64,000 nt of DNA from Ricordea florida (taxonomy: Eukaryota > Cnidaria > Anthozoa > Corallimorpharia > Ricordeidae): positions 40,220,782 through 40,284,781 of the forward strand of contig OX453273.1 in assembly GCA_949710005.1 (NCBI GenBank), in the 5' to 3' direction. Positions 33,858-51,652 of the stretch are shown piece by piece (the stretch's first letter is position 1; every line of letters begins with the position of its first letter). A program made the position numbers and the translations under genes. The notes under the pieces were generated by a model. That model was not told the DNA's origin. It saw only the letters and a program-made list of their open reading frames with translations, and ran no database searches.

Positions 33858-35417
33858 CTACCGAAATATATACCATGCTAATCCACCAGCGACAACTATA
33901 AATGCTAATATATTTTTTTCATGCTGTGAGTCATGCTGCGTTGAGTCTATATTATTTTCGTGTTGCGTTGATTCTAGATTAGTTTCGTGTTGTGAGGATT
34001 TTAGTTTTGGTTTTGTCTCAGTTCTATGCGGTAACTTTACCTTTGAAGATCCCATGTTATGATTTATTCCAACCTGTTTTGCTTCAGTGTTTAGGGAAAT
34101 ATTCACTCCAAAACGCATATCATTAGTCGCTTTCATCAACTTGTTATTAAAACCAGTCACGCTCTCAGTGTTGATTATCATATTACTAGGCATTAGCCAT
34201 ACACCCGGAGCAACAGCTAAATCAAGCCGTAATTTCGCTTCTTGGACAGCTAATTGATACCTTTGGATCGAACTAGAAATGTCATTCTCGATCACACTAC
34301 TCTCAAATAGGGCTAAGAATTCTTGTTGAGTCTCGATCGCTCCACCACCATTACCGTAAATCGAGTTTCTAGTGTTAACTTGCGCCCCCAATATGCAGTA
34401 AACAAAAGCTTCAGCAGATCTATTCAATCTACCAAGTCCAGCTTTAGTGAGTCCATAGCCACTTGTTGGGATAAACCAGGCATATTTGTAATCGGCAAAG
34501 TCATCATTACGGATGAATGAGATGAGATTACCTTTTTCTTTCTTACCTCCGTCATCAGCAAATTTACCACCTTCACCAGGCCACTGATCAGCTTCATCAT
34601 CGTAATTCCTTACCATATGAACATTTTGATATCCACCACCCGCTCCATGATATCCAGCACCATAATCTATGAATATATCGCCCAAACCCCCATTTCTTCC
34701 ACCTTTCCATCTAAAGTCAGAGTTTTTTGAGATTCCAAATTCAGCACACAATCGTTGATAAGCGACTTTGCTGTAAGGGTTGTTGTTTATTACAAAAGGT
34801 TGCTCATCAGGTAGGGGAAGACTCAATTCATACAGTATTCGTCTTATAGTGAAATACACATGAAACTTAATGAAGCTACTAACGACTTTGGGGTAGTTGA
34901 GGCTCTCAAAAGGACTTATACCACAACCAGAGGTCGCACACCACACTGCAAAGTTCAGTTGTTGGGGCCAATAATTCATGTCGGGGGTGTTCAGCCATTT
35001 TCTACTCTGTTTACCAAACTTGAAAGTCACAACTTGGGATGTAAATATGTTACGCATCTTAGCGGTGAACTTTTTAGTATTGGACACGTATATATCCAGT
35101 GAGGTAAACATGTTTGTGATATTACTTGTAAAGTCATCAAAATCAATGGCAGGTATTGGGTAAGATCGATTGGTCATAGTTAAACTCTTGGGGAATGAAC
35201 TCAATGCATCATCATTCAATCCTAAATCTTTCCATAGCAGTCTTTTCAAACGGGGTGATAGGTCTTCAGTCCATGTTTTGCCAGTGGGGTCATCATAAGA
35301 CATGATTGTTGTTCCATTAACTTTCCACCTAATGTAACCACCATATTGATCAGCTACAAATACGAATTGACTGTGATCAGCCTTTGGATACCTATTTCTG
35401 AAATCATTGAGTAACAT
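33858..35417 (-). CDS. Polinton 519-aa protein with C-terminal membrane anchor
   Basis: Largest gene of the structural block after the capsid protein. Gly-rich central region (YGAGYHGAGGGYQNVHMV), repeated polar tail with STQHEN-type units (residues ~480-500), and a C-terminal hydrophobic segment ILAFIVVAGGLAWYIF. No enzymatic motif was seen. The anchor and the position suggest a virion surface or attachment component, but I cannot place it in a family. Start chosen at the first ATG; a TTTAAAAAC variant of the upstream motif lies ~30 bp before it. Confidence 0.7.
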   Translation of the reverse strand: MLLNDFRNRYPKADHSQFVFVADQYGGYIRWKVNGTTIMSYDDPTGKTWTEDLSPRLKRLLWKDLGLNDDALSSFPKSLTMTNRSYPIPAIDFDDFTSNITNMFTSLDIYVSNTKKFTAKMRNIFTSQVVTFKFGKQSRKWLNTPDMNYWPQQLNFAVWCATSGCGISPFESLNYPKVVSSFIKFHVYFTIRRILYELSLPLPDEQPFVINNNPYSKVAYQRLCAEFGISKNSDFRWKGGRNGGLGDIFIDYGAGYHGAGGGYQNVHMVRNYDDEADQWPGEGGKFADDGGKKEKGNLISFIRNDDFADYKYAWFIPTSGYGLTKAGLGRLNRSAEAFVYCILGAQVNTRNSIYGNGGGAIETQQEFLALFESSVIENDISSSIQRYQLAVQEAKLRLDLAVAPGVWLMPSNMIINTESVTGFNNKLMKATNDMRFGVNISLNTEAKQVGINHNMGSSKVKLPHRTETKPKLKSSQHETNLESTQHENNIDSTQHDSQHEKNILAFIVVAGGLAWYIFR

Positions 35418-35520
35418 TTTATTATTTATGTTTAGAATAAGTTGTTTTTAAATCAACACCGTTCTTTTCTAATACCAACCTCATAATTCCATCCTACAGG
35501 CGTTCGCTCAAATGAAAATT

Positions 35521-36117
35521 TCAACGTTCGGGACCGGTTAACTCCTTTAAAATTTCCGCACGAACCTCTGTCCTTATCTTTGACATATTTAAGTTTTTTT
35601 CTGTATCTTTCCGGTTTTTTTGACGGATTTCGAGTTTTAGTTTTTCAAACTTGTCCACCTCTGCTAAAATTAGCGAAAATTCTTGGTCGGAGATGGCATT
35701 ATCTTTCAGTGCCTTTGAAACCAAATCGTGAATGGTGTTTACTTTTGCTTTTGCTAGAGAAACTGTCTGTTCGTGTTTACTAACTTTATGTGAAAGTCGT
35801 TTAGAAGCCGCACCGAATCCGACCGATATTCCTCCACAAAGACCACCAACCGCTCCTAATGGGATACCAACAACAGCACCAAAACCAGTAAGAGAGGTTC
35901 CCAGTCCACTTGCAGATAGGATAACTGAAACCACCCCGCTACCAACACTGATTTTTGTAAATATTCCCCTCGCTCTATTGTATTTTTTCCTAACATCCTC
36001 ATAATGTCTAATTTCCTTCTGAAGATTATGTACTACTTCACACGATTTTTGAAGTCTGAAATTATTTTGGTCCCCATTCATAGGCACTTGTGGATAAATT
36101 CTATTGTAGTCTTCCAT
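35521..36117 (-). CDS. Polinton 198-aa protein, helical with Gly-rich hairpin
   Basis: An N-terminal coiled coil (VVHNLQKEIRHYEDVRKKYN), then a long Gly/Ser/Val-rich hydrophobic stretch (residues ~55-105, including GFGAVVGIPLGAVGGLCGG) able to form two membrane spans, then another charged coiled coil. It ends 103 bp before the 519-aa gene. Upstream motif TTTAAAGATTT is at 36141-36148 on the opposite strand. Probably a membrane-active virion protein (inference). Confidence 0.65.
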   Translation of the reverse strand: MEDYNRIYPQVPMNGDQNNFRLQKSCEVVHNLQKEIRHYEDVRKKYNRARGIFTKISVGSGVVSVILSASGLGTSLTGFGAVVGIPLGAVGGLCGGISVGFGAASKRLSHKVSKHEQTVSLAKAKVNTIHDLVSKALKDNAISDQEFSLILAEVDKFEKLKLEIRQKNRKDTEKNLNMSKIRTEVRAEILKELTGPER

Positions 36118-36127
36118 ATTTTACAAA

Positions 36128-36514
36128 TCAACAGGAAATCTTTAAATGAATTCGAATAGGTTCGTTATTTAAGTTAGGCTTTCTTCCCTTTTTATCTAAA
36201 ATACACAAAGTAAAGTAGTTGACCGGATTTTTGGTTTGTGGAACTCTTAAACAAGGATGATTTTGAGATGGAATAACTGCTAGTAGTTGTGAGGGTTTAA
36301 GTTCTACATTTTCACCTTCGGGGATACAGCAATTGGAATATGAAGACTTTGGCTCTATAAGATCACACATTAAGTACAAAGGATTTCTAGACGACGATTG
36401 ATGAATGTAACTAACTTGCATTTGTATCTCTTTTACTTGGGTTAAGGGAGGATCTAGATAAATTCTTGTTTCAGGAGTTAGCATATCGATAGTTAGAAAC
36501 GTTGTATCATTCAT
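36128..36514 (-). CDS. Polinton 128-aa beta-rich protein
   Basis: Mostly alternating hydrophobic residues without membrane spans, with conserved-looking ends VSYIHQSSSRNPLYLMCDL and EPIRIHLKISC. The size and strand pattern would fit a single jelly-roll or fibre/penton-associated protein, but no diagnostic motif is visible. It lies 8 bp from the 315-aa gene and 10 bp from the 198-aa gene. Confidence 0.55.
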   Translation of the reverse strand: MNDTTFLTIDMLTPETRIYLDPPLTQVKEIQMQVSYIHQSSSRNPLYLMCDLIEPKSSYSNCCIPEGENVELKPSQLLAVIPSQNHPCLRVPQTKNPVNYFTLCILDKKGRKPNLNNEPIRIHLKISC

Positions 36515-36522
36515 GTTTTTAC

Positions 36523-37470
36523 TTAGCGTCTCTTCTTTTTAAATTGTTCCACAAAATATAGAACCACGGTCACTATCAGCAGCCAAGCGTTCTTACCTAA
36601 AAATCCAATAACCTCACCGGCAGTCTTGAACATAAAGCTTACGATCGCTCCAACCATTCCAGGCAATATTTCACCAAGTTTCTTACCGATGGTCTTCAAA
36701 CCGTTACCAACACCTTTACCCAATTTGGTTAGACCTTTAGAAAGATTAGAAACTATAACACCAATGACCACACCAACAGCACTCACAACGGCAAAGACTG
36801 TGAACCCGTACTTCTTGAAGATGGCCTTTACCCGCTCTCTTAATGGCAGTCTTTCCTGTATCTTTTCATTCTCATCTTCAAGATTGGCTATATTATTCTC
36901 CTGCTCATCGATTTCCCTCTTGAGAGTCTCTATTCGGTTACTTTCTTCTGGGGTTTTCATTGGCTTATCTCTGTGGAATTTTAGTTCCTCCTTCTTTTTG
37001 TTTAGTGATTCTTTTATCTTAGCTATTTCATCATCATTAGCTTCTAAAACATCTAGCGCTTTTGGACCTAGAGCGTCTTTCAACATTTTTGGTGGATCTT
37101 TATCGAATTCGCCATTGGGTAATAAAATGTATTTGTGAGCGTTTGCCCTCTTCAATCTCAAAAATACTCTATCTATTCCTCCACTAATTGATCTGCCAAC
37201 ACCTTTGATGAACTCAGAAGTCTTAGCATATGGGAAAAATCTTTTTATTTCTTTTTCAGCATCTTCTTGATCTTTCATCCTGGTATCTAACAAGGGTCGA
37301 GTTTCACCACCACCAAATGAAGTTTCTTCTTCATCATCAGGGTCAGTTGGACGAGTGGTGGATGTAAATGTGTTTAATGGGGTGCCATAATTTGTGGTAT
37401 CACCATCATAGTCTGGATCAACTGCTCCAAAAGGATTTTCTTTGTCCGGTATATCTCCGCCTTCTGCCAT
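36523..37470 (-). CDS. Polinton 315-aa protein with coiled coil and membrane-active C-terminus
   Basis: The N-terminus is acidic and disordered. A strong coiled coil (about 150-210, ESNRIETLKREIDEQENNIA) precedes a hydrophobic span (FAVVSAVGVVIGVIVS), a Gly/Lys amphipathic region (GLTKLGKGVGNGLKTIGKKL), a second hydrophobic region and a final span before a KKKRR tail. This pattern resembles membrane-lytic minor virion proteins such as adenovirus VI-type factors only in general character. TTTAAAGATTTC is at 37495-37502 (opposite strand), 25 bp before the ATG. Confidence 0.65.
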   Translation of the reverse strand: MAEGGDIPDKENPFGAVDPDYDGDTTNYGTPLNTFTSTTRPTDPDDEEETSFGGGETRPLLDTRMKDQEDAEKEIKRFFPYAKTSEFIKGVGRSISGGIDRVFLRLKRANAHKYILLPNGEFDKDPPKMLKDALGPKALDVLEANDDEIAKIKESLNKKKEELKFHRDKPMKTPEESNRIETLKREIDEQENNIANLEDENEKIQERLPLRERVKAIFKKYGFTVFAVVSAVGVVIGVIVSNLSKGLTKLGKGVGNGLKTIGKKLGEILPGMVGAIVSFMFKTAGEVIGFLGKNAWLLIVTVVLYFVEQFKKKRR

Positions 37471-37518
37471 AATTTTTTACTAATCAGTAAGAAATCTTTA
37501 AACTGGTCACACAATTAA

Positions 37519-37911
37519 CTAAAAGAATTTACTAACCATATAACCCAATGCCAGCATACCACCACCTACATATACCATCTCCCCCATCTTTTGGTTGCTA
37601 CTAGGTCTATAATAATCAGAGAATTTTGGTTCATGTGTCTGACTATACAATTTCAAAGCTTCATCAGTATTCGAAATATTTTGTGAAGCCTGGTGTTTAG
37701 CATCCTTCTGTTGAGAGTACCAATCAATGAGATTCTGTCTCTTTTCCTGGTATGTAGCATAATCTTTTTGATATTTTTCTATTGCCTTGTCGTGTCGTAT
37801 TCGCTCCGCATCTGTATTATCACCCGAGAGATATTTTGCAAGATACGAGCCACCTACGAACGTTGTCGCATTCAAAATAGCTCCACCAATCATCATTGCT
37901 ATTGTCGCCAT
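37519..37911 (-). CDS. Polinton 130-aa protein with two terminal membrane segments
   Basis: An N-terminal hydrophobic segment (MATIAMMIGGAILNATTFVG), a charged central helix rich in Lys/Gln/Asp and a C-terminal segment VYVGGGMLALGYMVSKF. No family is recognised. Separated by 23 bp from its upstream neighbour; a CTTAAAGATTTT motif lies ~20 bp before the ATG. Confidence 0.6.
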   Translation of the reverse strand: MATIAMMIGGAILNATTFVGGSYLAKYLSGDNTDAERIRHDKAIEKYQKDYATYQEKRQNLIDWYSQQKDAKHQASQNISNTDEALKLYSQTHEPKFSDYYRPSSNQKMGEMVYVGGGMLALGYMVSKFF

Positions 37912-37934
37912 TTATTAGTCAATATGTAAAATCT

Positions 37935-38153
37935 TTAAGTCGGCAAAATCTTTTGATCTTCTAAATAAGTTTTTAGGTACATACTACCGGACAGGACAGC
38001 GACCCATTTAGCATAGTTTGTAATACTTGAGGAGGGGTCGTTTATAAATGATTCTTTCATAGCCTTTTTAGCTACGTATCCAACACCGGCAGCCAATCCG
38101 ATAATGACGGCTGAATCGGTAACAGTTTTCACAAGTTTGTTTTCAGTTGACAT
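37935..38153 (-). CDS. Polinton 72-aa small membrane protein
   Basis: One hydrophobic stretch (VIIGLAAGVGYVAKKAM) and a second weaker one near WVAVLSGSMYLK. Small but placed in the uniform minus-strand block, with the TTTAAAGATTTTC motif at 38178-38185 before the ATG, which supports it as a gene. Confidence 0.6.
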   Translation of the reverse strand: MSTENKLVKTVTDSAVIIGLAAGVGYVAKKAMKESFINDPSSSITNYAKWVAVLSGSMYLKTYLEDQKILPT

Positions 38154-38194
38154 GATTTTTATTGTGGGTAGAGAAAATCTTTAAACTACTTTCC

Positions 38195-38578
38195 TCATAG
38201 CATTACTATTTTCGGAGTTGGTTGAGGTGGTGGTTGGGTAGTGGTCTGTGGGGGTGGTGGTTGGGTTGGTGGTTTTCTGTTTTTGTAGTACCTCATAAAC
38301 ATGTCAACTGCGGTAAACCCTATTCCAACAAGAGATAACACAGTAGTAAAAGATAGCTCTGGAATCCATGCTTTAGATTCGCTCTCTGCATTTATATTTT
38401 CTTCCTTGTTAGTCATTTCCCTTGCTGTTTCCCTAGCTAACGCTTCTTTGGCTCTTTTGTTATATTCTGCTAGTTTCTTACCGGCAGCGACCTTTTTAGG
38501 ATCTTTCTCTTTCTTTTTAGGATCTTTCTTTTCAGGTATAGGATCCATTGTAATTTGTTCAACAACTTCATCAGACAT
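38195..38578 (-). CDS. Polinton 127-aa protein: basic helix, one membrane span, Pro-rich tail
   Basis: Lys/Glu-rich N-terminal half (KKDPKKKEKDPKKVAAGKKL), a hydrophobic span LSFTTVLSLVGIGFTAV, then a tail of Pro/Gln/Thr (QPPPPQTTTQPPPQP). The charge pattern could bind DNA or capsid while membrane-anchored (inference). TTTAAAGATTC is at 38599-38606, upstream of the ATG. Confidence 0.6.
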   Translation of the reverse strand: MSDEVVEQITMDPIPEKKDPKKKEKDPKKVAAGKKLAEYNKRAKEALARETAREMTNKEENINAESESKAWIPELSFTTVLSLVGIGFTAVDMFMRYYKNRKPPTQPPPPQTTTQPPPQPTPKIVML

Positions 38579-38606
38579 TTATTTCCCATAGTAAAGAATC
38601 TTTAAA

Positions 38607-39080
38607 TCAGTTGTTCTCATTAGTCTGCTCAGTTTTGTTGATTTTAATGTGCTTAGCAACCTGGAAGAGTCCACTAGCAAGTGCTACCAATCTTCCACCT
38701 TTTAATACCAAGAGACCTACAAAGTTTGTCAGTTCACGCTTAACCAACTCATCGTTCTGTAAGTCTTTGCTAAGCTCTTCGGTGTCATCTACAGGAACCA
38801 AGTAAGAAATGATATGAGACGCTGCTTGAAGAGCTGACTCTACTAATCCACTACTAACTTGCTTGCCTAAGACTGCTTGGTAGCGATTATAATATTTTTC
38901 AACTTCTTTTGCAGTGAGTTTCTTGATATCACCTAGACTCATCTCAACACCTAAATATTCCTTTGTATTCCCAAGAGATGCGAGAATAGCTAGTGATTCT
39001 TGTTTGATTTCAACATCACTATCTTTTGTCTCATCTTTTACCTCAGGCTGTTCTTCAATAAAATCTTCAACGCTTGTCAT
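38607..39080 (-). CDS. Polinton 157-aa acidic protein
   Basis: Acidic N-terminus (about 30 residues), then helical segments including MSLGDIKKLTAKEVEKYYNR and a hydrophobic C-terminal stretch FVGLLVLKGGRLVALASGLF. No known motif. Its place directly downstream of the ATPase gene and a TTTAAAAGAATC motif before the ATG support it as a gene. Confidence 0.6.
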   Translation of the reverse strand: MTSVEDFIEEQPEVKDETKDSDVEIKQESLAILASLGNTKEYLGVEMSLGDIKKLTAKEVEKYYNRYQAVLGKQVSSGLVESALQAASHIISYLVPVDDTEELSKDLQNDELVKRELTNFVGLLVLKGGRLVALASGLFQVAKHIKINKTEQTNENN

Positions 39081-39111
39081 CTTTTAATTTTGTAATAATA
39101 CATAGATTCTT

Positions 39112-39738
39112 TTAAATCACCGCAGGAATCTCTAAATAACATTGGAATGGATAACGTAAACACAAACAGAGTCTCGAATATTTTTCAGTTTTCAACATTT
39201 CAACAAACTTTTTACGAGTTTCAGAGTCTAAATCACCACCATAATCTTCGAAAAGCATCTTCATCCCCTTTTGTGATGGATTATGGAATGTAACCACACA
39301 AGCTACATTTTCACGGAATGGTTTTGCTATGGATGTTAATTGTTGTGTCAATACCCACACTGATAATCCATGATGTCTTCCAGAGAATGCTAGATCTATA
39401 AACTTGTTCGAGCGTTTCTTAAGATCTTTCGATACAGCACAGTCGTCTAAAATTATTAGTGTATTTGTACCAGAGAACAAAGTTTGACAATCAGTTAATA
39501 ACTCGTTAATCTCATCGCTGTTACTAGCATCTGGTGATAATACTAAGAAACGTTTATCTCCGTGAGCAAATTTATGATAGGTTTTATTTTTAGCATAAGT
39601 CGGACATATGAGAACAATGTATTCAAAAACTTTTTTGAAGGGTCCTCGTAGCTGATCCGTGAGGTACTTTGTCTTTCCACAATTTGTTGGACCTGTTATA
39701 ATGCAATGAAAAGGAACTTTTTCTCGCAGTTCTTCCAT
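39112..39738 (-). CDS. A32-like DNA-packaging ATPase
   Basis: P-loop ATPase of the FtsK/HerA-like packaging group: Walker A FHCIITGPTNCGKTKYL near residue 15, Walker B TLIILDDCAV near 95, and a downstream polar motif SVWVLTQQLTS consistent with the sensor glutamine. Its 208 residues match the compact Polinton/virophage form. It is predicted to pump element DNA into capsids. The stop codon of the capsid gene is 7 bp from this ATG, so they are probably expressed together. Intact. Confidence 0.9.
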   Translation of the reverse strand: MEELREKVPFHCIITGPTNCGKTKYLTDQLRGPFKKVFEYIVLICPTYAKNKTYHKFAHGDKRFLVLSPDASNSDEINELLTDCQTLFSGTNTLIILDDCAVSKDLKKRSNKFIDLAFSGRHHGLSVWVLTQQLTSIAKPFRENVACVVTFHNPSQKGMKMLFEDYGGDLDSETRKKFVEMLKTEKYSRLCLCLRYPFQCYLEIPAVI

Positions 39739-39745
39739 CTTTTAA

Positions 39746-40984
39746 CTAATACATAATTGATCTTAAGTTTGAATTCATGATCTCCATCAACGCGTCGGCT
39801 ACCACAAACATGTGACAGGTTATATTTCCTGTTCCTCCAACTTTTCGTTTCATTTCAAGTTTTACTCCATCTCGTGTGTTGTTCAAGGCCATACCTCCTC
39901 CATGAATACTATTGTCGGGGTGAGTTCTCAAGTCAATCCATAGAGCAAACTTGTCGACATAAAAATCATTTAGCTTGACACCCTCTTTACCGAAACGTTT
40001 CATTACCGAATCCCAGAAGTCTGACGGTTTCATTCCCTTGGAGTAGATACGGTTTGGCATGCCGTCAACGTTAATGTCGATTGATGTGATATTTGGATTT
40101 ACAAACTTCTCAGAGTCTCGTGCTCCTCCGACGTATCTCTCTGTGAACAAGCACAATATACCTTTCATTGATCTCCTAGGTATATTAATGTACTCGTTTA
40201 TGTAACTGTCATTAGGTTTGGAGATGGTAAAAGTTTTGTGGAGAAGTACATTCTCGTAAAAGAATACTTTACCAACCTGATAAGCTGACTGAGCCTCACT
40301 AGCTAAGTATTCACTTGAGATACAAGCATATTCCAACTCGAGGTTTTCGATTTTGTAAGTTGGAGTCTTGGTCTTGTCAGAATAAACAACAATATCGGAA
40401 ACTGAGGCCAGTGTAATCTCAAAGATTAGTGAATGAGGTAACGCATTTGGATAGAAAACCCCATGCTTGCTGAGAATAGGATGGTTGAGTGGGATACGGT
40501 ACTTGGTGTTGTATACTGCTGCAAGAGCTACTTCCTTATCATTTCCTGAGGTTACCTTATCACCTGCATTTGTCCTAAGCTTCCTCATGTTTTCAGAAGA
40601 AATACCTTGTTTTATTCCATTCTGACGATCTTCAGCTGTTAAGTATAAGTCATGGTAGGTTTGAAAGAGATCGTATCTTTGAGTATCCTGTAGTGTTTCT
40701 CCACCAAAAAGAACCCTTAGTCTGGATACAAGGTTACTGCCTACGTTATTCACAAGGGTGTTGTTAGCATGACCATCAACAGTCAAGTCAAATAGTAGAG
40801 ATACACTTCCTGGGACAATCACTACATTCTGAGAAAGTTGTGGAATATTTATATATAGTGTTTCTTCAGGATTAGCGGATGAGGGATTGAGTGTAATTCG
40901 ATTCAGTGACGATTCCGCTTTCAAACCTAGGGGCTCTAGTGGAATCCTGTTTGGGTTAATTTCTTCAGATATAGCTTGTGACAT
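39746..40984 (-). CDS. Double jelly-roll major capsid protein
   Basis: 412 residues, intact, beta-rich. Recognisable blocks: LTLNPSSANPEETLYINIP-like N-terminus, LRVLFGGETLQDTQRYDLFQ, and C-terminal NPNITSIDINVDGMPNRIYS followed by MKPSDFWD. This layout and its position next to the A32-like ATPase match the Polinton major capsid protein (established family context); the assignment is by motif and synteny. It opens the minus-strand block and shares a divergent promoter region of 35 bp with the integrase gene. Confidence 0.8.
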   Translation of the reverse strand: MSQAISEEINPNRIPLEPLGLKAESSLNRITLNPSSANPEETLYINIPQLSQNVVIVPGSVSLLFDLTVDGHANNTLVNNVGSNLVSRLRVLFGGETLQDTQRYDLFQTYHDLYLTAEDRQNGIKQGISSENMRKLRTNAGDKVTSGNDKEVALAAVYNTKYRIPLNHPILSKHGVFYPNALPHSLIFEITLASVSDIVVYSDKTKTPTYKIENLELEYACISSEYLASEAQSAYQVGKVFFYENVLLHKTFTISKPNDSYINEYINIPRRSMKGILCLFTERYVGGARDSEKFVNPNITSIDINVDGMPNRIYSKGMKPSDFWDSVMKRFGKEGVKLNDFYVDKFALWIDLRTHPDNSIHGGGMALNNTRDGVKLEMKRKVGGTGNITCHMFVVADALMEIMNSNLRSIMY

Positions 40985-41019
40985 ATTTTATTTTTAAAGA
41001 TAGTCGGATTATTCTTTAA
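40985..41019. promoter_or_regulatory. Bidirectional promoter between capsid and integrase genes
   Basis: Only 35 bp separate the two ATGs. The segment contains TTTAAAGA at 40993-41000 on the plus strand and its inverse TCTTTAAA at 41013-41020, so each gene has a copy of the block-wide motif 20-40 bp before its ATG. The motif overlaps the integrase start codon. Confidence 0.7.
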
Positions 41020-41253
41020 ATGAGTAACGAAAACATGCTAACAAAAATATACTATTCCACTTATGGATATTGGAAAGGGTATTCTGCCATTCCAAAATTA
41101 GCTGAAAAAGCAAAAGTCAGTGAAGATGAGGCTAAAAGATGGCTTGAGAAACAGGCGCTGTGGCAATTCTATCTACCAGCTCCAAAGTATATCCCTAGGC
41201 CGCACTGGAATGTGGAAAAGCCTAATCAGATTCATCAAGCAGATCTATTATTT
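41020..41253 (+). pseudogene. Polinton rve integrase, N-terminal part
   Basis: ATG at 41020. YYSTYGYWKGYSAIPKLAEK and KQALWQFYLPAP are the characteristic N-terminus of Polinton integrases, and the sequence reaches NQIHQADLLF, containing the first catalytic Asp, before the nested transposon begins at 41254. The rest of the protein lies at 46691-47450. Confidence 0.9.
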
Positions 41254-41366
41254 CATGGCCAGAAATCCGTGACAGTCAGCAGCATGCATCGAGGACTCGC
41301 AAAGACTAGAAACATCGTAGTGATCATGCGCAAAGGCATCAGATTTCCCAACGTTCTCTTAGTAAA

Positions 41367-42553
41367 ATGGCGGACGGTGTGCGAGCGTCCAGTAAAAGAA
41401 CTCGTGGTTTGTATGTGCAGATGCACAATGCTTCCTCATCAGATCTTGTTTGGGGGGGAAAAAACAACAAAAGGCGAACAAAAAAATCGAATTTTTTTTC
41501 CGTCGAACGGGTCGTATCAAAGAGGACCGCAGGCGGCACGGTGAGTGTTTCAGGTTTAAATTTCTTTGGTTGTCACTTGTTTCTCCCTTGATTTAGCTCT
41601 TTGAACTGAACCATATCCTTTGCAATTTTCAGACTCAGTATTTGATAAAGTGGTCTGGGTACAGTGCATTTTATAATAGCTGGGAGGACGAGAAATACCT
41701 CACTGTTGATCTTATCAGGTGAGCTTACTTTTTCCTCTTAAGTGGTGATGTATAGTTTAATTGCAGCTAGCAGAACTTTTCATTGTCAGATGATTGAACA
41801 ACGTATTTTGTAGTTACTTCAACCTTTTACTGAAGGATATGTTAAAGTTGTTATTACTAGAGTGATGGATTGAAGCTTCCTTGGTATTTTCTTGAATTCA
41901 GTCGAATGTGTTTATCTTTAATTTCTTTGACAGTACTTGTATTATACATGTATATTATTAGAGTTTTTCTCTTCTTTGCCTAGTAACATTCTACATTTGC
42001 TTTAATGTTTTGATTTAAATTGTGTAACAATGTACTAAATGATATTTTGTGGATTGTAGTTTAGTTTAAAACATTTCCTGTCCAGAGTGCAAAATTTTGT
42101 TACTAATTATATTTTATACTTTCCTTCAATTGCAGAAATTATGACAAGCCCCCAGTTCCGAGGGAAAGGGTGATCAAAGCAGTTGACACCTTGCGGGTAT
42201 CAGTACTCGCAAAACTTAAAAGCAAATCCCGAAGCAATGTGGTTATTGATTTTGAGCATGATTGCTTCAGAATGCTTTTCCATGGGAAGGGGAGGGAGGC
42301 TAGACAGAAGGGCTACATCCTGCTTGAAAAAAGTGACTTTGAAAGGTGTCAGCTTGTGGAAAACTGGGATGTAGCTTGTGACAGTAATGGGGATGGGGTG
42401 AGGGTTAAGTACCCTTTTAAGGTTCATTTATTTTTAGCTAAGTCTCCCAAAACATTTACTGTAGTCCAAGGAGAGCTTCAAGAAGATCAGCGAATGCTAA
42501 TTGAGAAGCTTTCCCTGGACTTTGGTCGGCAGCCTTTTACCCTCAGGCCTTAG
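41367..42553 (+). CDS. Chromodomain accessory protein of the nested transposon, three exons, 225 aa
   Basis: Exons 41367-41540, 41633-41718 and 42136-42553 join at GTGAGT/TTTTCAG and GTGAGC/TTGCAG sites with consistent phase. The chromodomain spans the first junction: FSVERVVSKRTAGG, then QYLIKWSGYSAFYNSWEDE, with the usual aromatic and W-E positions. The first 40 residues are basic (KNNKRRTKK). The C-terminal ~130 residues (VVIDFEHDCFRMLFHGKG...) match no family I know. Chromodomains read histone methyl-lysine marks (established); here a role in guiding insertion or tolerating silencing is inferred. It lies wholly inside the transposon and points toward the transposase. Confidence 0.8.
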
Positions 42554-42675
42554 ATTAATGTATTTTGAATTTAATCTTTTTACTCCCACTGATAAACCTT
42601 TATTTTTTGTTCATAGAAAGAAGTTTTTCAGCAGCAATAACTTATTTGCTTTAGTGCTATTTCACAATCAATTTT

Positions 42676-42713
42676 TACCTCATGGTATGTACTTCATACC
42701 ATGAGGTATAGTG
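42676..42713. terminator. 14-bp hairpin between the convergent transposon genes
   Basis: TACCTCATGGTATG and its inverse complement are separated by TACTT, about 125 bp beyond the chromodomain gene stop. It may mark the end of transcription or be a small internal palindrome; no function is proven. The rest of 42714-43334 shows no gene. Confidence 0.45.
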
Positions 42714-43334
42714 ATGGATGGATTTGTCACTCCATTCCCGTTAGACAATTAATTTTGCATTAAATCTGCATTAAATGTGAATTAAACAGGTTCTCCCCTG
42801 TCTCCCCTACTAGGTTTGGTTTTGTCCACAAAGTCATGCTATTGTTTTATGTTCACATATGTGGGGGGAGGGGGTGAGACAAAGCGGCAAAACATGTTTA
42901 CAAAATGGCGTCAGTTGTGTCGAGCCCGACGTTAAGATTGTCAAGGCGTGTTTTCGTTCCTTTTGCTCCATCTTTGATCAAAATACACTAACAGGAAATG
43001 TGTTCAAGAATGCTCGAGGGGAAAGAAATGGGTTTTAAAGTCTTAAACGTGACGATGTCTCCAATTTGGACGACGAGTAATCAATCAGTCGTAGCAAGAG
43101 TGCACAAAACGAATTCGGAATGAACGCTTTATTGTCTGGGGAAAGGACAGCACTTCATGAAATAATTACCACAGACCATGAGGTAGCTCAAAGGAGCCTT
43201 TGATTTTTTAACTATTGTTAAGGGTTGATTTTGGTTACTTTTGGGAGTGAAAGGCTTAGAGTAATGGATGATAACTTTTAATTATGTATAGTCTAGTTTT
43301 GAAATTGTTTCCTTTTTTGGGATTAAATATTTTC

Positions 43335-45998
43335 TTATTTACAAATTTCCTGCAGTTGTTTGATAAGTTCAGTTTTGTTTTTGTTGCTAAATCCTTTGGC
43401 ATTTCTCTTTTTTAATTCCTCTTTCAATTGCTTCACTGTCATATGAGAAAAGTCATTGTCAGTGCTGGTGGACATAGAAGGGGGGTGTTCATTTTGAGCT
43501 TCACTTGATTGCTGGCGTGGATCTTGACTGAAGTGTTCCCTTGCTTTCTTTCGGTTTCCTTTAATTTCAACATCCCAGTAGCTTTCCTTGCGCTTTGTAT
43601 AACTGCGTACTTCCCTTTCATGTTCTTTAAGCTCCCACTGACGTTGCTCTTGTCGCAGAACATCCCCAGCTGAATCCCACTTGTTGGACTTTCGCAGAAT
43701 TATTGCACGAGCTACATCATTGTTCTTTTCAACCCCTTGCCCTGTAAATATTTTGACTGACTTGTGGAGCTCAAAGAACTTGGGAATGTGTGCAACCATG
43801 ATGTGCATGTATGGGGTAACTCTGGCTTTCTCATACCCTTCTCTTTGGCCATTTAGACTTACAAAAAGAGAAATCCACTCTTTTGCCTTAGTGAAAAATT
43901 CTGTGGGTTGTTTCTTAGGGTTCCAACCATTGACAACTTTGTAAATTTCAGCAAACTCTGTCCAGACTTCAACCACAGTTGATGCTGTTTCTGGGCGGAG
44001 AATGCTGTTTAACTTGCTGGGGAGGTCAGCCAAAAGGATCTTCTTGTCTTTTCCCAAGAGGCTTGTCCAGTCGTGTTTGCCACTAGCTTTCCCATCAGCA
44101 TTTCGTTGTTCCCACACATCAAATGAAACACCACAAGATCTGATTGCCCTAATCAGGCTTTTTAGATGTAACCCTGTTACTGCCCCCTTTTTACTGTCCA
44201 AGTCATCATCTTTGTCCCAGTCTAGGCACTCATGTACTATATTTTCAAGCAAGATATCTGTGACACGCAGCATTAAGCGAAGCTCATCTACCACTATATG
44301 ATCAAGTGGGATATTCAACAAAGGTTGTTTGTCACAACAGTAGTTTTCTTTGGATTTTTGTGACATTTCCCAAATCTCTTCCAGTGTCCTTCCCAAGGGT
44401 GGAGTGTTGTAACTGTTGTAGTCATTATTGATTTTCCAGTGATCAGTCTTGTGTATTTTACACCAGGCACAAGCATAGTTGGATGTTGCCCCCTTGAGTC
44501 CAAGCATGAGCAAGATAAATTTGTAATCACCACCAAGATAGAATTCAGTTTTAACCTCCTGGCCATCCACAGTAATTTTGCCTGTGGCAATTAAGTCATT
44601 TACTTCCCTGAATAAACTCTGAAATGACTCTTTTATTGTCTGGTAACTCTCAGATCCATTGACTATACCAAGAGTTCTATTTCCTTTAGCTGACATAACT
44701 GACTCCTCTGTTTGCAAAATAGAAAATGAAAGTAAAATAAAATTTGAATTTCGGGTCATTCTTGCACCGTCACCATTGATTTTGATTTTGATTTTATCAG
44801 TGATAGGGTCAAAGTCACTGTTTTGCTTGAGAAAAGCAGAGATATGCTCTTTGAACACAGTTTCAACTGAACTTACTTTGGCCCCTTCAAACTTGGCATG
44901 TAATGGATCAATTTGGCACATTTTGTTTAGCTCATCACGGCATTGCTTGACCAAATAGGAGCGTGGAAGACCATCTGTAATCATAGAAATTTCATGATAG
45001 AATGCATCTCCCACACAAAATTTGTCCAACAGGAAGAGGATTTTTTCCACACACTCTTTTTCTTCTTCAGGCAAGGAGCTGTACTTTCTTTCCCCTTCCT
45101 CTTGACTGGCTGAATACTGGCAGTTTGCTTGACTTGAGATATGGTGAACCACATTAGAGTCTGATTCTTTTACAGTTAAACTTAGTAGTTCAACACCAAA
45201 GGAAGAGCAAAACCAAAGAGCAGCTTCGGCTCGTGAAAGAAAAGTTTTCAAGGTCCTGAACTTATTTTTCACAGTTGAAAGAGGCTTTCCCTGATATGAA
45301 CTAATTCCTACTGATTTTTCCAATGATCCAATGTAATCTTCAAGTTCTTTGTTTGTTTTCTGCAAAACTTGTGTTTTATTTTCCCTTTGTTTCACTGCCA
45401 GCACCATTTCCTCATAGATTCTTTCCTTCTCTACTTCTAAATTCTTATAGTTTGATTTCCATTCCTGTAGTTCATTTTCTATGTTTCTAATTTCTTGGTA
45501 GAGTTCCTGAACAGATTTTGCTTGACCCTCCATAACATGAAACTTTCGGACGCGATTGTCAAGCTCTTTTCTTGCCCTGCCTTTAGTTTTCTTGTAATCT
45601 AATGAAATTTTATAGGCAATATTTAACAAAGCTGCATCAATTTCACTTCGTACATTTTCATCGTCGCTAAAGGCAAAGCATTGCCCGAATGTGCACTTTT
45701 CCACCAAATCTATGTAGCTGAACCTTTTTACCCCAAGTGGGTTTTCAGCTGCGCTTGTAGAAGGAGAATTTGCCTCTCTCTCTTCACTTCCGATTGAGGA
45801 ATCTTCACCGGAAGTGCTAGTCGAAAGCACGTTTTGTTCTTGAACGACTTTATGCCATTCTCTCAAAAGGGGATAGGGAATTTCTAAAGTAAAAAGCACT
45901 CTTTTCACTCTTTCCCTCGCCTCATATCTTAATTCCGGTTGAGTGAATCTGATTGCATCCTTGAAACGCGAGCAACATTGACTAAATTCGACGCTCAT
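43335..45998 (-). CDS. Transposase candidate, single exon, 887 aa, SAP-like C-terminus
   Basis: Intact frame with ATG at 45998. A central coiled coil (about 160-235) leads to a putative RNase H-fold core: Asp in KIKINGDGARMTRNSNFI, Asp in FYLGGDYKFILLMLGLKG followed by a Cys pair ACAWCKIHK, and Glu in FTGQGVEKNNDVARAI. The Asp, Asp-CxxC and QGxE order parallels the gene at 7.8-15.7 kb. The last 40 residues, MTVKQLKEELKKRNAKGF and KTELIKQLQ, form a SAP-like DNA-binding motif. The position inside 22-bp inverted repeats makes transposition its likely role. The family name is unknown to me; relation to KDZ or RAG1/Transib-type enzymes is only a possibility. Confidence 0.75.
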   Translation of the reverse strand: MSVEFSQCCSRFKDAIRFTQPELRYEARERVKRVLFTLEIPYPLLREWHKVVQEQNVLSTSTSGEDSSIGSEEREANSPSTSAAENPLGVKRFSYIDLVEKCTFGQCFAFSDDENVRSEIDAALLNIAYKISLDYKKTKGRARKELDNRVRKFHVMEGQAKSVQELYQEIRNIENELQEWKSNYKNLEVEKERIYEEMVLAVKQRENKTQVLQKTNKELEDYIGSLEKSVGISSYQGKPLSTVKNKFRTLKTFLSRAEAALWFCSSFGVELLSLTVKESDSNVVHHISSQANCQYSASQEEGERKYSSLPEEEKECVEKILFLLDKFCVGDAFYHEISMITDGLPRSYLVKQCRDELNKMCQIDPLHAKFEGAKVSSVETVFKEHISAFLKQNSDFDPITDKIKIKINGDGARMTRNSNFILLSFSILQTEESVMSAKGNRTLGIVNGSESYQTIKESFQSLFREVNDLIATGKITVDGQEVKTEFYLGGDYKFILLMLGLKGATSNYACAWCKIHKTDHWKINNDYNSYNTPPLGRTLEEIWEMSQKSKENYCCDKQPLLNIPLDHIVVDELRLMLRVTDILLENIVHECLDWDKDDDLDSKKGAVTGLHLKSLIRAIRSCGVSFDVWEQRNADGKASGKHDWTSLLGKDKKILLADLPSKLNSILRPETASTVVEVWTEFAEIYKVVNGWNPKKQPTEFFTKAKEWISLFVSLNGQREGYEKARVTPYMHIMVAHIPKFFELHKSVKIFTGQGVEKNNDVARAIILRKSNKWDSAGDVLRQEQRQWELKEHEREVRSYTKRKESYWDVEIKGNRKKAREHFSQDPRQQSSEAQNEHPPSMSTSTDNDFSHMTVKQLKEELKKRNAKGFSNKNKTELIKQLQEICK

Positions 45999-46668
45999 TT
46001 TACTTGTAAATTTTCGGCGATGTTATGTTTCAGTTGCATAATTTATGACGGCAAGGTTACCAAGTTAGAGTGAAGCAGTTTGGGATTCAAGATGGAGAAT
46101 AGAATTGGGTAGAGACAACGGTTTACGACGGGCTAAAAACATGGTATTTTTCTGTACCTTTCTCGGACTTTAAAAATGGCGTCGCTTTGAGGATTCTTCA
46201 GTAGTATTTGGACTGTTTTTCGACCAAGTTCGGAACCGATTTAGGGGCTTTAATGGTACCTAATTTTGGATTGTAAATGAAGTTTAACATGTAAACAAAA
46301 CAGTACGATCTGGAAGAACATTCATGCAAACCTGCCAAGTGGCCTAATTTTGGGAATTTTATGCTCACTTTGGACTGTTATTAAGAAAATGTATGGCGGA
46401 GTGCAAGGATTTATGCGTCCAACAGAAATCGCTTCGGGAACTACTTAAACACACGTAAAAGGACATAGAGCATGCAGCGAAAGGTTGTACAAATAGTCCA
46501 CTTTATTTTGCGATCTGGAAGAAACTGTCACCCTCGGCGGTTGTATCGTAGGAGCAATTATTAAAAGAAGGTTAGTTGAAATTGCACTGTTTTCCTTGTA
46601 ATGGTTTTTGCGACGCGTTTGTAACCTAAGACCCAGTTCGTTATCGATGCGCGTGCGTGGCGGCCATG
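45999..46668. other. Right subterminal region of the nested transposon
   Basis: Promoter side of the transposase gene. Frames at 46445-46927 (-) cross the transposon boundary and are chance. No coding sequence is supported. Confidence 0.5.
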
Positions 46669-46690
46669 CTGTCACGGATTTCTGGCCATG

Positions 46691-47450
46691 TTTACCACAT
46701 GATAAAGTGGGAAGAAAGACATATCGATATGCTCTGGTTGTGATTGATATTGCCTCGAGATACAAAGATGCAGAACCACTAACCTCTAAAGAAAGTAATG
46801 AGATTTCAAAAGCTTTAACAAAAATATACTCCAGAAAGTTAAAATATCCTAAAACATTAATTGTTGATCCTGGAAGAGAATTTATGGGTGATGTAACAAA
46901 ACTTATGGAAAAACATAATGTAACCATACAACGGTCTGAAGCTGGAAACCATAGAGCTCAAGCATTTGTTGAAAGAGCAAATAAAACATTATCAGAAAAA
47001 CTATTTAGTCATCAATATGCTCAAGAAATGATTAGTGATGATAGGTCCAGAGTATGGGTGAAACGATTACCGGCTATTTTGAAAACTCTGAATAGTATAC
47101 CAACGAGAATAACTGGTAAAGAGCCTGAGAAAGCTATAAGACTGAAAGAGGTTGATATTGATCCTCCAAATTATAAGCGAGTTGTTGGACATGATGAGGT
47201 GAGACTACCACCTGGTGTTAAAGTTAGATACTTACTTGCTCCTGGAGAAGATGAAGGAGGTGAGCGAAGACGTGCTACGGATCCTATCTGGAGTATTCAG
47301 GTTTACAATCTTTCTAGGAGTGTGGTGTCACCTAATCAGCCAGTGTTGTATTATTTACTAGATGGACCTAGGCGTAGTTTTGTGAGGGAAGAGCTTCAAT
47401 TTGTACCAGAAGATACTGAGCTTCCACCTAATTTTGTGTTGGAACGATAA
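46691..47450 (+). pseudogene. Polinton rve integrase, C-terminal part
   Basis: In-frame integrase sequence resumes at 46692 just after the transposon: the core continues with VVIDIASRYKDAEPL, second Asp in TLIVDPGREFMGD and Glu in RAQAFVERANKTLSEKL about 35 residues later (D-D-E). A C-terminal beta-rich domain ends at FVREELQFVPEDTELP. The upstream in-frame ATG at 46608 lies in transposon sequence and is not the native start. The gene's 3' end overlaps the polymerase gene 3' end by 55 bp (47396-47450), a tail-to-tail arrangement. Confidence 0.9.
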
Positions 47451-48313
47451 TGTCCGTAGGCGTAAGTATGTATACCATCTTCGCAAATGTGTCTCTTGTC
47501 ATCAAATGGTGATAGGGCTATCTTGTTAACAGTTTCAGTGTAAACATCATGCTTGTGACTTCTGATTACATTCATCTTTCTCATCTGCGGCTGTTTATTG
47601 AATAGACAATCCTTATAGTTATCGAAGGTTATGGTTTTATTGACGACTGCCTCCTTCATTCCCGCACATTTCTTTTCTTCTGTACCTTCATCCATCCTGT
47701 AGGAGTAGAGTTTGGCTCGTAGACCTACAAATTCAGTTATCTGTTTACCACCAGCCTCATCTTTAAACATGCCGATGATTTTCTTGTTTACACCTGTCTC
47801 GATACCTGATTGATGATCTTTAGGATAGTTGCTGGTGTCGAACATGTCTCTCACATCTAGGCTAATATCCTTGTAGAAATCATCTGTTTCTATCTCATAG
47901 ACAAGACTGTCAGTATCTGTGAACAACAATTCAGCCTTTTCACCATATTTAGGTTTGATGTAATTATAGTGAAAATCGTACATTATTGTTTTACTTAGAT
48001 CCAGAATGGACATGCCTAAGTAAACTGGCTTATCGAATACTAACTTTGTTTTCTTCATGAGGATGGCTACTAGATTCTCACAAAAGATGGTGCGGCTCTG
48101 ATAGTTTGGCTTTGATATTAATTTTTTCACATCTTTTTCATTCGTAACCAATCGTACGTCCACCCTTTTTCTAATGTTTTCCATGGTTTTCCCAAATACA
48201 GAGTTATTCATCAGCTTGAAGAAATCTTTTTCAAAATCGTTGGCTGCTTTCACTCTTAGGTTGGTATTCAAGACGATGTAAGGCTTTAACCATGCAGACT
48301 CTTCGAATGTAAT
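47396..48313 (-). pseudogene. Polinton DNA polymerase B, C-terminal part
   Basis: Contains KLMNNSVFGKTMENIRKR and the catalytic motif LLFTDTDSLVYE (YxDTDS type) of family-B protein-primed polymerases, then TEFVGLRAKLYSYRM. In-frame coding extends a little upstream of the first Met at 48271 to 48313, where the SINE begins. Together with 48604-51652 it would be about 1,320 residues. Confidence 0.92.
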
Positions 48314-48603
48314 TCGAATCTATGGGGAGCAGGGTTGGCGCAGTGGTGAGAGCGCTCGCCTTCCACCAATGTGGCCCGGGTTCGATTCCCGGCCCCGGCG
48401 TCATATGTGGGCTGAGTTTGTTGGTTCTCTACTCTGCTCCGAGAGGTTTTTCTCTGGGTACTCCGGTTTTCCCCTCTCCACAAAACCAACATTTGATTTG
48501 ATTTAATTTATTTCATTTGCGCTTTACAGTGTCCCCAATTAGTACAGCAGTGCTAAATACAGTTGACACTCAAATAAAGTTCATTATTATTATTATTATT
48601 ATT
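48314..48603. mobile_element. tRNA-derived SINE inserted in the polymerase gene
   Basis: The head contains a pol III A box (TGGCGCAGTGG at 48336-48346) and B box (GGGTTCGATTCCC at 48378-48390); the tail is (ATT)n at 48583-48603. ATGTAAT is duplicated at 48307-48313 and 48604-48610. 290 bp. The tRNA-like head lacks a terminal CCA-ready acceptor and is followed by a unique body, so this is a SINE, not a tRNA gene. Confidence 0.93.
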
Positions 48604-51600
48604 ATGTAATACCCCTATGAATCTTGGTGACTTTTAATCCAAGACTTTCGTAAACTTTCAGGGTTTCGTGGTGAACAACATACTTTACCTTGTCGTTGAG
48701 GTTTGGGATCAATTTCTCAACCTTATTAACTACAAGTCTCTCTGGAGCTAGCGGATAGTCGTTATGCAAGTCGTGAAGTCGTTGAGGATATACCAAATCA
48801 ACCTCGAGTATGCATGGGAGATTTTTCCAACCCTTGAGTTCTTGGTTAGTCATCCATCTAAAACCGTGAGTAGGTAGTGGTTTACTCATTCCCCCACCGT
48901 ATAAGTTGTTTGCGTCGAGATATGTAATATACTTTGTGGTTAAGTTAGAATCAAAGTTGGTCATGTAGGGGTTGTTAGCTTTACCATATCTAGTAGAGAT
49001 CATAGATACGCCTCCTCGAATGCCTTTCTCAACCATAAGTAGCATGTCAGGATCAGTTAGCAGCTCCAACTCCACTTTAGTTAACTTTAACGCAGCATCC
49101 CAAGCTAGTCCAGGCGCTGTGTAATACCAGGCAGGGTCCAATCCATAGTTTTCACTGCAAATATCTCGAAAGTTCTCTAAGACATCAGCTAACAGTAGTA
49201 CATCTGACTCAAGATATAGGTCGTGATATTCCCTCATTGTTTTCATATTGAAGGTTTCCCACACCTTTTGAGCATGTTGGTAGTTGTCTTCTGTTATGTC
49301 TTTGTCATTGAGTTTTGAGTAGAACGCTTCTTTAGGTGGTAATTGTGTACTTGATAGTTTATCGAAGCCGTCAAACCAATCGTATGGGAAAACACCTTTT
49401 CTTAACAATAACTCTAATTGTTCACCCTCATAGTAGCTCGTGAGGTTTTTGAAAGCTTCTTTTGGTAGATTATTAACTAAACTGTCAAGGCTGGTTGCCA
49501 TAAATTTAAATGAATCGATGAATCTGATATCTCGCTTCACATCAACCTGATTACCTTTTTTGTTTGTAAAGGTGTCAACTACAATCTGTTTTGTGAAAGA
49601 AATATACTTTTCCTCATTATTAGGTATACAGTTTATTTTACCTTCTGATGTACCAAGGTTCTTGATAAATAAGTGCGAATCATATCCAGATAGATTATGA
49701 AAGAAGACTGGAAAGAACTTTGGAATCTTGTAATTTAAGTTGCATTCATTATGAGCTGCTCCTCTATACTTTCCTGTAAGGTGGCAGTGGTCTAATACCT
49801 TATCTTCTCCTAATTCGCCCTCGCAGATGTGGCAGTGAGTAGCATTTTCATAGTCGATTTTATCCTGTTTAGTCATCTTAACTTTCTTAGAAAACTTGAA
49901 CTTATTGTAAATTTTCTTAATATCTGACTCTAAATTATCTACAAACATCTGTGGAATATCTTCGTCTGGGGATTCAGCAGTGTATCGTACAAGAATGGGT
50001 GGAAATATGTTGTCGTCAAAACACTTGATGAGATAGCAGAATCCAGATGGTTTGTGCTTCTGGTATTGTTTAGTAAAGCTTTTACTTTCATCTGGAGAGC
50101 AGGTGTGTATTTTCTCTGTAGAGCTCTCAAAGTCAGCATATACAACAAAGGGGTGCCGCATTTTTCTTTTATAATTTTTAAAGTAAATATAGCGGGGATT
50201 TCCATCATTATCTAAAGGCATTTCAATCTTAACTTCTTCATTTGTGGTGCAGTATTCAAGATGTTTTTCTAATGAATTTTTTGACTGGAATGAGTTGAGG
50301 CATCTATAGCAAAAGTGCATCGTAGATTTATGTTTACTAACTTTTGCAGCTAACAATCTACTCATATTCTTTATCCAACAGTAGTGATTTGTTTCATCGT
50401 TTGATATTAGAAGTAAGTTGATCACATGACCTCCTCGTTTCTTACTTATTTTTAGAGGGTATACATCACCTTCATATCCGTAGACGTTAATCGCATAGGG
50501 GTTTTGCTTTTCGAACTTATCAATATGTTTTAGTGAAACGGGAAACTCTATTCCTGACCAGTTGAACTTCTCAGAGTTTTCTCTCATTTGTTTGTTTAGT
50601 CTCTCTGGATGAACATCTTGTGTATATACAGCTGAGGTTACCGACCATTTGAAACACTCGTGATCGTTCTCATTCTTAACATTGATGATTGCCTTCTTTG
50701 ATGCTAATTTTGATGGTAGTTGAATATAGGAACTTCCAGAAAGAGGTTCAAAGGGGTCGATGTTGATATCAAAGTGTTCAACTTGATCGAATTGCCAACC
50801 AGAACCTTGATTTTGAAACTGTTGGATTGATTCAAGTGGACGATTTGTCATAGTATTGAACGAGTCAGAGAAATCGGTTGACTTAGTAATCGTTTCTACG
50901 GTTGAATTAAAGTATCCCGAGTTTTCATCAATCTGTCCAGTAGCAGGATTCTTTTTTATGAATTTACAGGTAAATATAAATTTCACCTTGAGCGGTTTCT
51001 TTTGATGCTTAATGAGATCTAGAACTTTTGGTTTGATGTTATTGATAAATGTCTTGGGGTCATACCCTTTCTTTCCATCTATCCTGTAGGTTTTTAGATA
51101 CCCCTTCAACGCTGTTTGTTGTTCTTTTAGAGTGAAACGCTTAAGTCTCTCGAATATTCGGTTTACTTTTTTCTTAAAACTATCAACTCGTTTGTTTACA
51201 TTCTTTTTGATAGGTTCTGGGACATAAGATAGTATCCAATCTGTGAACTTGTTAATCTCTTTCATTATCAGTTTGGTAACTCTGCTTGCTAAATTTTTAA
51301 GTGATGTGGGTTGGGATGTGGGTTTAGAAGGTTCGAGAATGGGAAAATTAATCTGAGGTACCGGTTCATCAAGAAATTGTCTTGGGAGTTTGAAAGGTTC
51401 GATAGGGGGAAAATTAATCTCAGGTACCGGTTCATCAAGAATATGTCTTTGCGGCTGGTTTGGGATATTTTTTCTAGGGGCTGGGATAGGTCTTTGCGTC
51501 TGGTTGAGGATATTAGTTCTAGGGGCTGGAATGGGTCTTTGAGGCTGGTTAGGGATATTAGTTCTAGTGGTGTCTATATTACCCCGCTCTTTGGCAAGGA

Positions 51601-51652
51601 CTTTCAGTTGTTTCACTGTCTTCTTTTCCATATTATTTTTATATATATACAT
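48604..51652 (-). pseudogene. Polinton protein-primed DNA polymerase B, N-terminal part
   Basis: The ATG at 51652 lies in the right terminal repeat and shares its first ~20 codons with the left terminal gene. A Pro-rich repeat region (NIPNQPQRPIPAPR units) follows, then a C2H2 finger (CYRCLNSFQSKNSLEKHLEYC-like), exonuclease motif VVYADFESS, an HNH/zinc-like CHICEGELGE...LDHCHLTGKYRG, FHNLSGYDSHLF, and polymerase motif YLDANNLYGGGMSK. The frame stops inside the SINE at 48602. Protein priming on terminal repeats is the known replication mode of this family. Confidence 0.93.

Follow-up and report, generated by a model that had tools for sequence, protein, structure and literature searches.

Within the window, by which is meant the whole 64,000-nt stretch of DNA analysed here, a transposase gene and a chromodomain gene lie between the same pair of terminal inverted repeats (TIRs). 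The questions raised by this locus are whether the two genes form one mobile element, to which group of transposons such an element belongs, and what a separate chromodomain protein could do for a DNA transposon. An earlier note on this DNA had proposed that the element is a DNA transposon with perfect 22-bp inverted termini, an intact 887-residue transposase candidate with a SAP-like C-terminus, and a convergent, spliced gene for a 225-residue chromodomain protein.

The element and its site

Coordinates of the features are in Table 1. The TIRs are 100% complementary over 22 nt and the transposase reading frame runs without interruption, and thus both of these claims hold. With up to 3 mismatches allowed, the TIR sequence has two matches within the window and none in 100 shuffles.

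In the partner gene model two introns (92 and 417 nt, both GT-AG) separate the exons, and the product has 225 aa. Among 15 near-identical copies (L009 to L023, L009 being that of the window), 14 keep the frame open over the three exons and have GT-AG introns; the exception, L020, has a single extra base in exon 1. Of the spliced chromodomain protein claimed, the chromodomain and the 225-aa model stand. The splicing is predicted from the sequence, and the homologues P0051 and P0053, which span the exon junctions, support it. The W and Y of a KWxGY motif, which by analogy with HP1 are presumably positions of the chromodomain aromatic cage, are retained in the window partner and in L048, L059 and L066. 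A perfect 14-bp inverted repeat with a 5-nt loop is present at 42676-42708, in the spacer between the ends of the two genes.

Table 1. Features of the transposon and its immediate surroundings (window positions)
Feature	Position	Strand	Remarks
Whole transposon	41254..46690		5,437 bp; TIRs and empty site in other Polinton copies
Left TIR, 22 bp, CATGGCCAGAAATCCGTGACAG	41254..41275	+	identical ends in further copies
Right TIR, 22 bp	46669..46690	-	
T, left neighbour of element	41253		with 46691, the sole net gain
T, right neighbour of element	46691		
Host Polinton integrase gene, interrupted, left part	41020..41253	+	
Host Polinton integrase gene, right part (rve)	46692..47450	+	E 7.5e-7, just under cut-off
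Partner gene, exon 1	41367..41540	+	
Partner gene, exon 2	41633..41718	+	
Partner gene, exon 3	42136..42553	+	conserved C-terminal domain of ~135 aa
Chromodomain, residues 44-90	41496..42145	+	PF00385, E 2.5e-11; across exons 1-3, both introns in span
RAG1-like transposase, 887 aa	43335..45998	-	intronless
Catalytic D410	44769..44771	-	D in 36/36 aligned
Catalytic D491	44526..44528	-	D in 35/36 aligned
Zinc ligands C510-x2-C513	44460..44471	-	36/36; align with RAG1 ZnC2 cysteines
Residue 574	44277..44279	-	Arg in window copy and L002; His in 34 others with a letter there
Zinc ligands H732-x4-H737	43788..43805	-	31/31 with a letter there
Catalytic E757	43728..43730	-	30/30 with a letter there
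SAP-like C-terminus, residues 849-879	43362..43454	-	below Pfam cut-off

A Polinton/Maverick provirus that occupies window positions 33858-51652 carries the insertion, and open reading frames and Pfam matches show that the element splits the Polinton integrase gene. The Polinton frames on its flanks encode the integrase (rve), a packaging-type ATPase (Pox_A32) and a protein with a weak capsid match (E 0.0034). A large flanking frame, whose sole Pfam match is to endonuclease VII, is presumably the DNA polymerase B, as judged by its place. The same genome has at least 39 further Polinton copies, with 96-99% identity over a 510-base part of the integrase, and the insertion site is uninterrupted in all 11 of the other copies that were read.

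Relationship of the transposase

The transposase is of the RAG1/Transib type and is a distant relative of RAG1. A profile of 36 sequences (the window protein and 35 of 50 homologues) finds amphioxus RAG1L (6b40) with E 2.4e-5 and RAG1 with E 0.0017. Either match is made up of two colinear stretches, one at ZnC2 and the other at ZnH2 and the last E; the individual stretches are weak alone (i-E 0.07 to 30). The Pfam RAG1 model matches two of the 36 profile members, with a best E of 0.0019. In a fold search with the predicted structure, all 45 PDB matches at E<=0.001 are RAG1 or HzTransib. The comparison with RNase H transposases that the earlier note had proposed as a check places RAG1 first among the families compared, with VIA Z values of 26.4 for RAG1, 23.3 for RAG1L, 21.1 for HzTransib, 13.5 for the P element and 9.9 for Hermes. 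The RAG1 fold alignments span model residues ~303-816, with the RAG1-like core placed at ~313-800, and identity to RAG1 and RAG1L within the fold alignments is 12-16%. The DDE residues, with C(2)C and H(3-4)H between the second D and the E, are those that mark RAG1/Transib-type (CMCT) transposases.

In the predicted model the N-terminus is a coiled coil, in part of low confidence, and no nonamer-binding domain was recognised in this partly low-confidence region. Chapaev transposases have an N-terminal Chapa zinc finger; before residue 327 there are here no Cys or His in the invariant or nearly invariant columns listed for the alignment, which includes N-terminally cut sequences. The SAP-like C-terminus is present as a match at residues 849-879 (E 5e-4), and its score of 20 bits lies under the Pfam cut-off of 23.9. 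The Arg574 at a near-invariant His position is common to the window copy and L002, which lie at different sites and differ by 1 nt.

Searches outside this genome gave no confirmed relatives of the transposase in IMG/VR, and none among 84 pattern matches in prokaryotic species genomes. Patterns made from the TIR and from the Polinton had no match in IMG/VR, and 11 pattern matches to the Polinton integrase there yielded no confirmed case.

The gene pair across the genome and the role of the partner

The window's own genome (537.8 Mb, 48 contigs) has 56 transposase matches at 49 loci and 87 matches to partner exon 3 at 84 loci. The partner is present at 44 of the 49 transposase loci, 78-1,477 bp past the transposase 3′ end, and the orientation is convergent in all 44 pairs. 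A genome search for full copies with the same gene pair had been named in the earlier note as a check, with a lack of further two-gene copies counting against its proposal; such copies were found, and the element is, as had been claimed, a DNA transposon whose chromodomain gene is separate and conserved.

Of the five transposase loci without a partner match, four are fragmentary. The fifth, C15:5225556, has an open transposase frame, and 2.5 kb of retrieved sequence showed no left end. Forty partner loci are without a transposase match, e.g., C14:9581234, C3:15002182 and C6:23933427 (51 of 762 candidates scored), and one partner locus of this kind, C3:25054065, lies inside a 5,815-bp TIR pair. 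Thus more distant transposases probably exist. Fifteen divergent partner loci were searched for a chromodomain exon upstream of exon 3, and 14 have one: the best E is below 1e-8 at 13 of them and only 7e-6 at L031 (small-database E-values); no chromodomain was recognised at the remaining locus, L030. L059/L060 and L066, two further lineages, also have the chromodomain, and a third, L064, has a weak match (E 0.005) where the stretch read ends; the check covers the lineages other than the eighth (L067).

Divergence of the partner follows that of the transposase (r 0.92) over eight lineages with transposases 41-72% identical, and 4 of 40,320 relabellings give an equally high value. Against the 73% lineage, the transposase has a dN/dS of 0.127; partner exon 3 has a pN of 0.178 and a pS of 0.774, the latter too high for correction. 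The pairing, the co-divergence and a pN far below pS thus indicate that the partner is an old, maintained component. The transposon has also been recently mobile. No stop interrupts the eight full copies read with the transposase (L001-L008). L003 does not differ from L004 over 2,661 nt, and a single nt separates the window copy from L002.

The earlier note had compared the chromodomain gene with those of chromoviruses, and an element-borne chromodomain is indeed shared by both. Chromovirus chromodomains reportedly direct integration to heterochromatin. The chromoviruses are Gypsy retrotransposons with an integrase chromodomain (chromodomains in Gypsy elements are mentioned in the available text of PMC12477816), whereas the chromodomain here is in a separate gene of a DNA transposon that has no reverse transcriptase. 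Since the transposase is of the RAG1/Transib type, the closest precedent is instead the RAG1L-RAG2L transposon (RAGL, ProtoRAG or TransibSU), which the earlier note had missed. Both have a RAG1-type transposase and a tail-to-tail second gene inside the TIRs, here in 44 of 44 pairs and with TIRs on both sides in 20 copies, and in both the second protein has a domain of histone-reader type. The accessible part of PMC7204232 describes RAG1L and RAG2L as convergent and a PHD in every invertebrate RAG2L except that of amphioxus. A RAGL partner has a kelch propeller, usually with a PHD, whereas the partner here matches Chromo and has a short C-terminal domain; neither kelch nor PHD is among the Pfam matches of the window partner and 14 homologues. 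RAG1L-RAG2L elements are reported from the corals Porites, Orbicella and Fungia in the available portions of PMC7204232 and PMC9435367, and the present element would thus be a separate lineage.

RAG1 is the enzyme that rearranges antibody genes, and V(D)J recombination is thought to derive from a transposon that paired a RAG1-type enzyme with the histone-reading RAG2. The partner here nearly always accompanies a distant cousin of RAG1, much as RAG2 accompanies RAG1. We consider it probable, with considerable room for doubt, that the element represents a cut-and-paste RAG1-related lineage with an obligatory or strongly favoured chromodomain cofactor that does a RAG2-like job. Several observations weigh against such a cofactor: five transposase loci lack a partner match, among them the open-framed C15:5225556; 40 partner loci lack a transposase match; L030 lacks a recognisable chromodomain; and profile and fold searches against PDB found no relative of the C-terminal domain, in a partner whose predicted structure is poor (mean pLDDT 56). 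It should also be noted that the window copy itself has Arg at the near-invariant position 574.

A role of the partner in expression should also be considered, whereby it would act as an anti-silencing factor or regulator that occupies the histone marks of the element or blocks host HP1, and would contribute neither to strand transfer nor to the choice of targets. The N-terminal part of the partner is a plain chromodomain, and beyond it no nuclease or DNA-binding match was found. Transposons with epigenetic modifiers or anti-silencing proteins are known, such as TET/JBP in fungal transposons, Vandal, and SET genes, all covered in the available sections of PMC12730594. However, the same source, as far as its available text goes, has fungal TET genes moving between transposon lineages, whereas the partner co-diverges with the transposase, as expected of a physical cofactor. 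A purely regulatory role is therefore possible but doubtful.

Ends, insertion junctions and known transposons

Both ends and their flanks were read in 20 copies. Three lineages contribute 14, 4 and 2 of these, and their ends read CATGGCC, CATT or CATGGC. CAT is found at 34 of the 40 ends, in agreement with the 5′-CA..TG-3′ termini that CMCT transposons have in most cases, and the outermost bases vary at the other six (GAT..ATC, ACT, ACG, TATT..AATC). The copy at C4:21554400 (L010/L044), otherwise near-identical, has GAT..ATC in place of CAT..ATG at its two outermost ends, so that both ends are altered as a pair. The exact 14-bp end occurs 204 times in the genome, and the reversed control 0 times. 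Among the matches listed (the first 100, from contigs C1 to part of C6) there are 36 end pairs, of which 25 are 831-939 bp long (ten exactly 935 bp), three 4,425-4,571 bp and six 5,394-5,815 bp. The ~935-bp stretches, e.g., C1:2558862-2559796, share the 14-bp ends and are too short for the transposase; judged by ends and length, they are likely non-autonomous relatives moved in trans.

Paralogous copies gave an empty-site verdict for seven of the 20 insertion sites; for C4c, C4a, A_C2, A_C12 and A_C7 there is no empty site among the matches listed. When target duplications were compared between copies, a check that the earlier note had advised, the net gain was the element alone (0 bp) at four sites, C13 (5/5 empties), C9b (1/1), A_C1 (3/3) and B_C16 (4/4). 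It was one base at the window copy (11/11) and at B_C3 (3/3), and C5b has 5 extra nt of filler (2/2). At the window site T5 is present in the empties and 3+3 T flank the element. The longest direct repeat in any register tried over the 20 sites is 3 bp.

Four candidate duplications were rejected. CATG was dismissed because it is a palindrome inside the TIR, where lineage A reads CATT, and TTT because T5 is already present at the empty sites. A 5-bp duplication is at odds with direct repeats of at most 3 bp over 20 sites, and at C13, C9b, B_C16 and B_C3 the empty sites rule out that 'AT' of a CATG target was duplicated.

The heptamer of the RSS is CACAGTG. Canonical Transib elements, in the accessible text of PMC4411706 and PMC7204232, have a transposase consisting of the core only, make 5-bp duplications and are apparently without a second gene. 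The present element differs in its second gene, in its CATGGCC, CATT or CATGGC ends, which are not heptamer-like, and in its repeats of at most 3 bp. It likewise differs from RAGL elements, whose duplication is almost always 5 bp, in having CATGGCC ends and a gain of 0-1 bp where decided. The CMCT assemblage comprises EnSpm/CACTA, Mirage, Chapaev, Transib, Plavaka, ESTA and Lanisha (PMC12730594, available text). With it the element shares C(2)C and H(4)H between the second D and E and the 5′-CA..TG-3′ termini, and differs in its maintained chromodomain gene and in the absence of a 2-5 bp duplication at the seven sites with a verdict. Thus by their published descriptions the element is set apart from Transib, RAGL and Chapaev, and it has the motifs and ends of CMCT transposons.

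The element could still be an ordinary Chapaev, Transib or EnSpm family catalogued in Repbase, with only the two-gene annotation being new. The C(2)C, LH and H(4)H motifs and the 5′-CA..TG-3′ termini are those of Chapaev/CMCT (PMC4079192 and PMC12730594, as far as available), and Transib and Chapaev are reported from cnidarians in the available parts of PMC7204232 and PMC4411706. However, Chapaev termini are given as invariably CAC..GTG, with a 3-4 bp duplication (PMC4079192, accessible text), in contrast to CAT..ATG at 34 of 40 ends here, and a 2-5 bp duplication is found at none of the seven decided sites. Judged by termini and duplications, an already catalogued family is unlikely. A search of the open PMC literature, through its listings and passages of several papers, brought up no chromodomain gene in DNA transposons of this kind.

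Spy DNA transposons reportedly also lack a target site duplication. Spy belongs to the PIF/Harbinger-ISL2EU group, unlike the RAG1-type element here. Alternatively, the duplication-free insertions could have arisen when excised elements were captured at breaks by end joining, and not by strand transfer through the transposase. The 0-bp gain at four of the seven decided sites, the filler at C5b and the six variable ends agree with this, but 34 of 40 ends are exact, and the 204 exact end matches point to regular mobilisation. Such an origin is considered improbable.

The mechanism proposed for the transposase with its chromodomain cofactor builds on the observed homology, the two-gene layout of the element, the parallel divergence of its genes, the recent copies, the empty sites and the lack of a 5-bp duplication. 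The transposase would bind the CATGGCC... ends, cut, and insert the element elsewhere, with little or no duplication of the target. The chromodomain would read a methyl-lysine mark on histone tails; the conserved C-terminal domain (~135 aa) might contact the transposase or DNA. The partner may thereby steer insertion to silenced, repeat-rich chromatin or permit work on it, a job akin to that of RAG2 with its PHD finger.

Insertion targets give the only hint of such steering. Polinton protein-coding sequence harbours 5 of the 20 sites (among them that of the window), versus none of 20 arbitrary 250-bp stretches, one of which contains N (one-sided Fisher p 0.024, 20 sites). The window site was picked by the finding itself, so that the count excluding it is 4 of 19. 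C2b is a sixth, weak Polinton case with longer flanks (32% identity, on one side). The enrichment, which comes from 20 sites, is compatible with a protein that reads silenced repeats, but may also mean no more than that insertions are tolerated in Polintons. A stronger form of the proposal is offered tentatively, the balance leaning against it: that a two-subunit RAG-like machine arose independently of RAG2, in which an obligatory chromodomain subunit directs insertion to marked chromatin with a stagger of 0-1 nt. That the chromodomain gene is instead a passenger, captured once and without a role, is disfavoured and very improbable, since the five loci without a partner match, the frameshifted exon 1 of L020 (1/15) and the missing chromodomain of L030 stand against retention at 44 of 49 loci and across lineages with as little as 41% identity, a pN well under pS, and an intact partner in 14 of 15 recent copies.

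If the cofactor proposal is true, a second RAG1-type lineage has an unrelated chromatin reader in the same tail-to-tail layout; pairing with a reader would then be recurrent and no accident of RAG2, and the use of a reader to a RAG1-type enzyme would become testable in a non-immune system. Insertion without the usual duplication would widen the known abilities of this enzyme class.

Two further open reading frames lie elsewhere in the window. A 554-aa frame at 29513-31177 has no Pfam match and by eye looks, we presume, like a KDZ-type transposase, and a 340-aa frame at 23082-24104 has a protein kinase domain.
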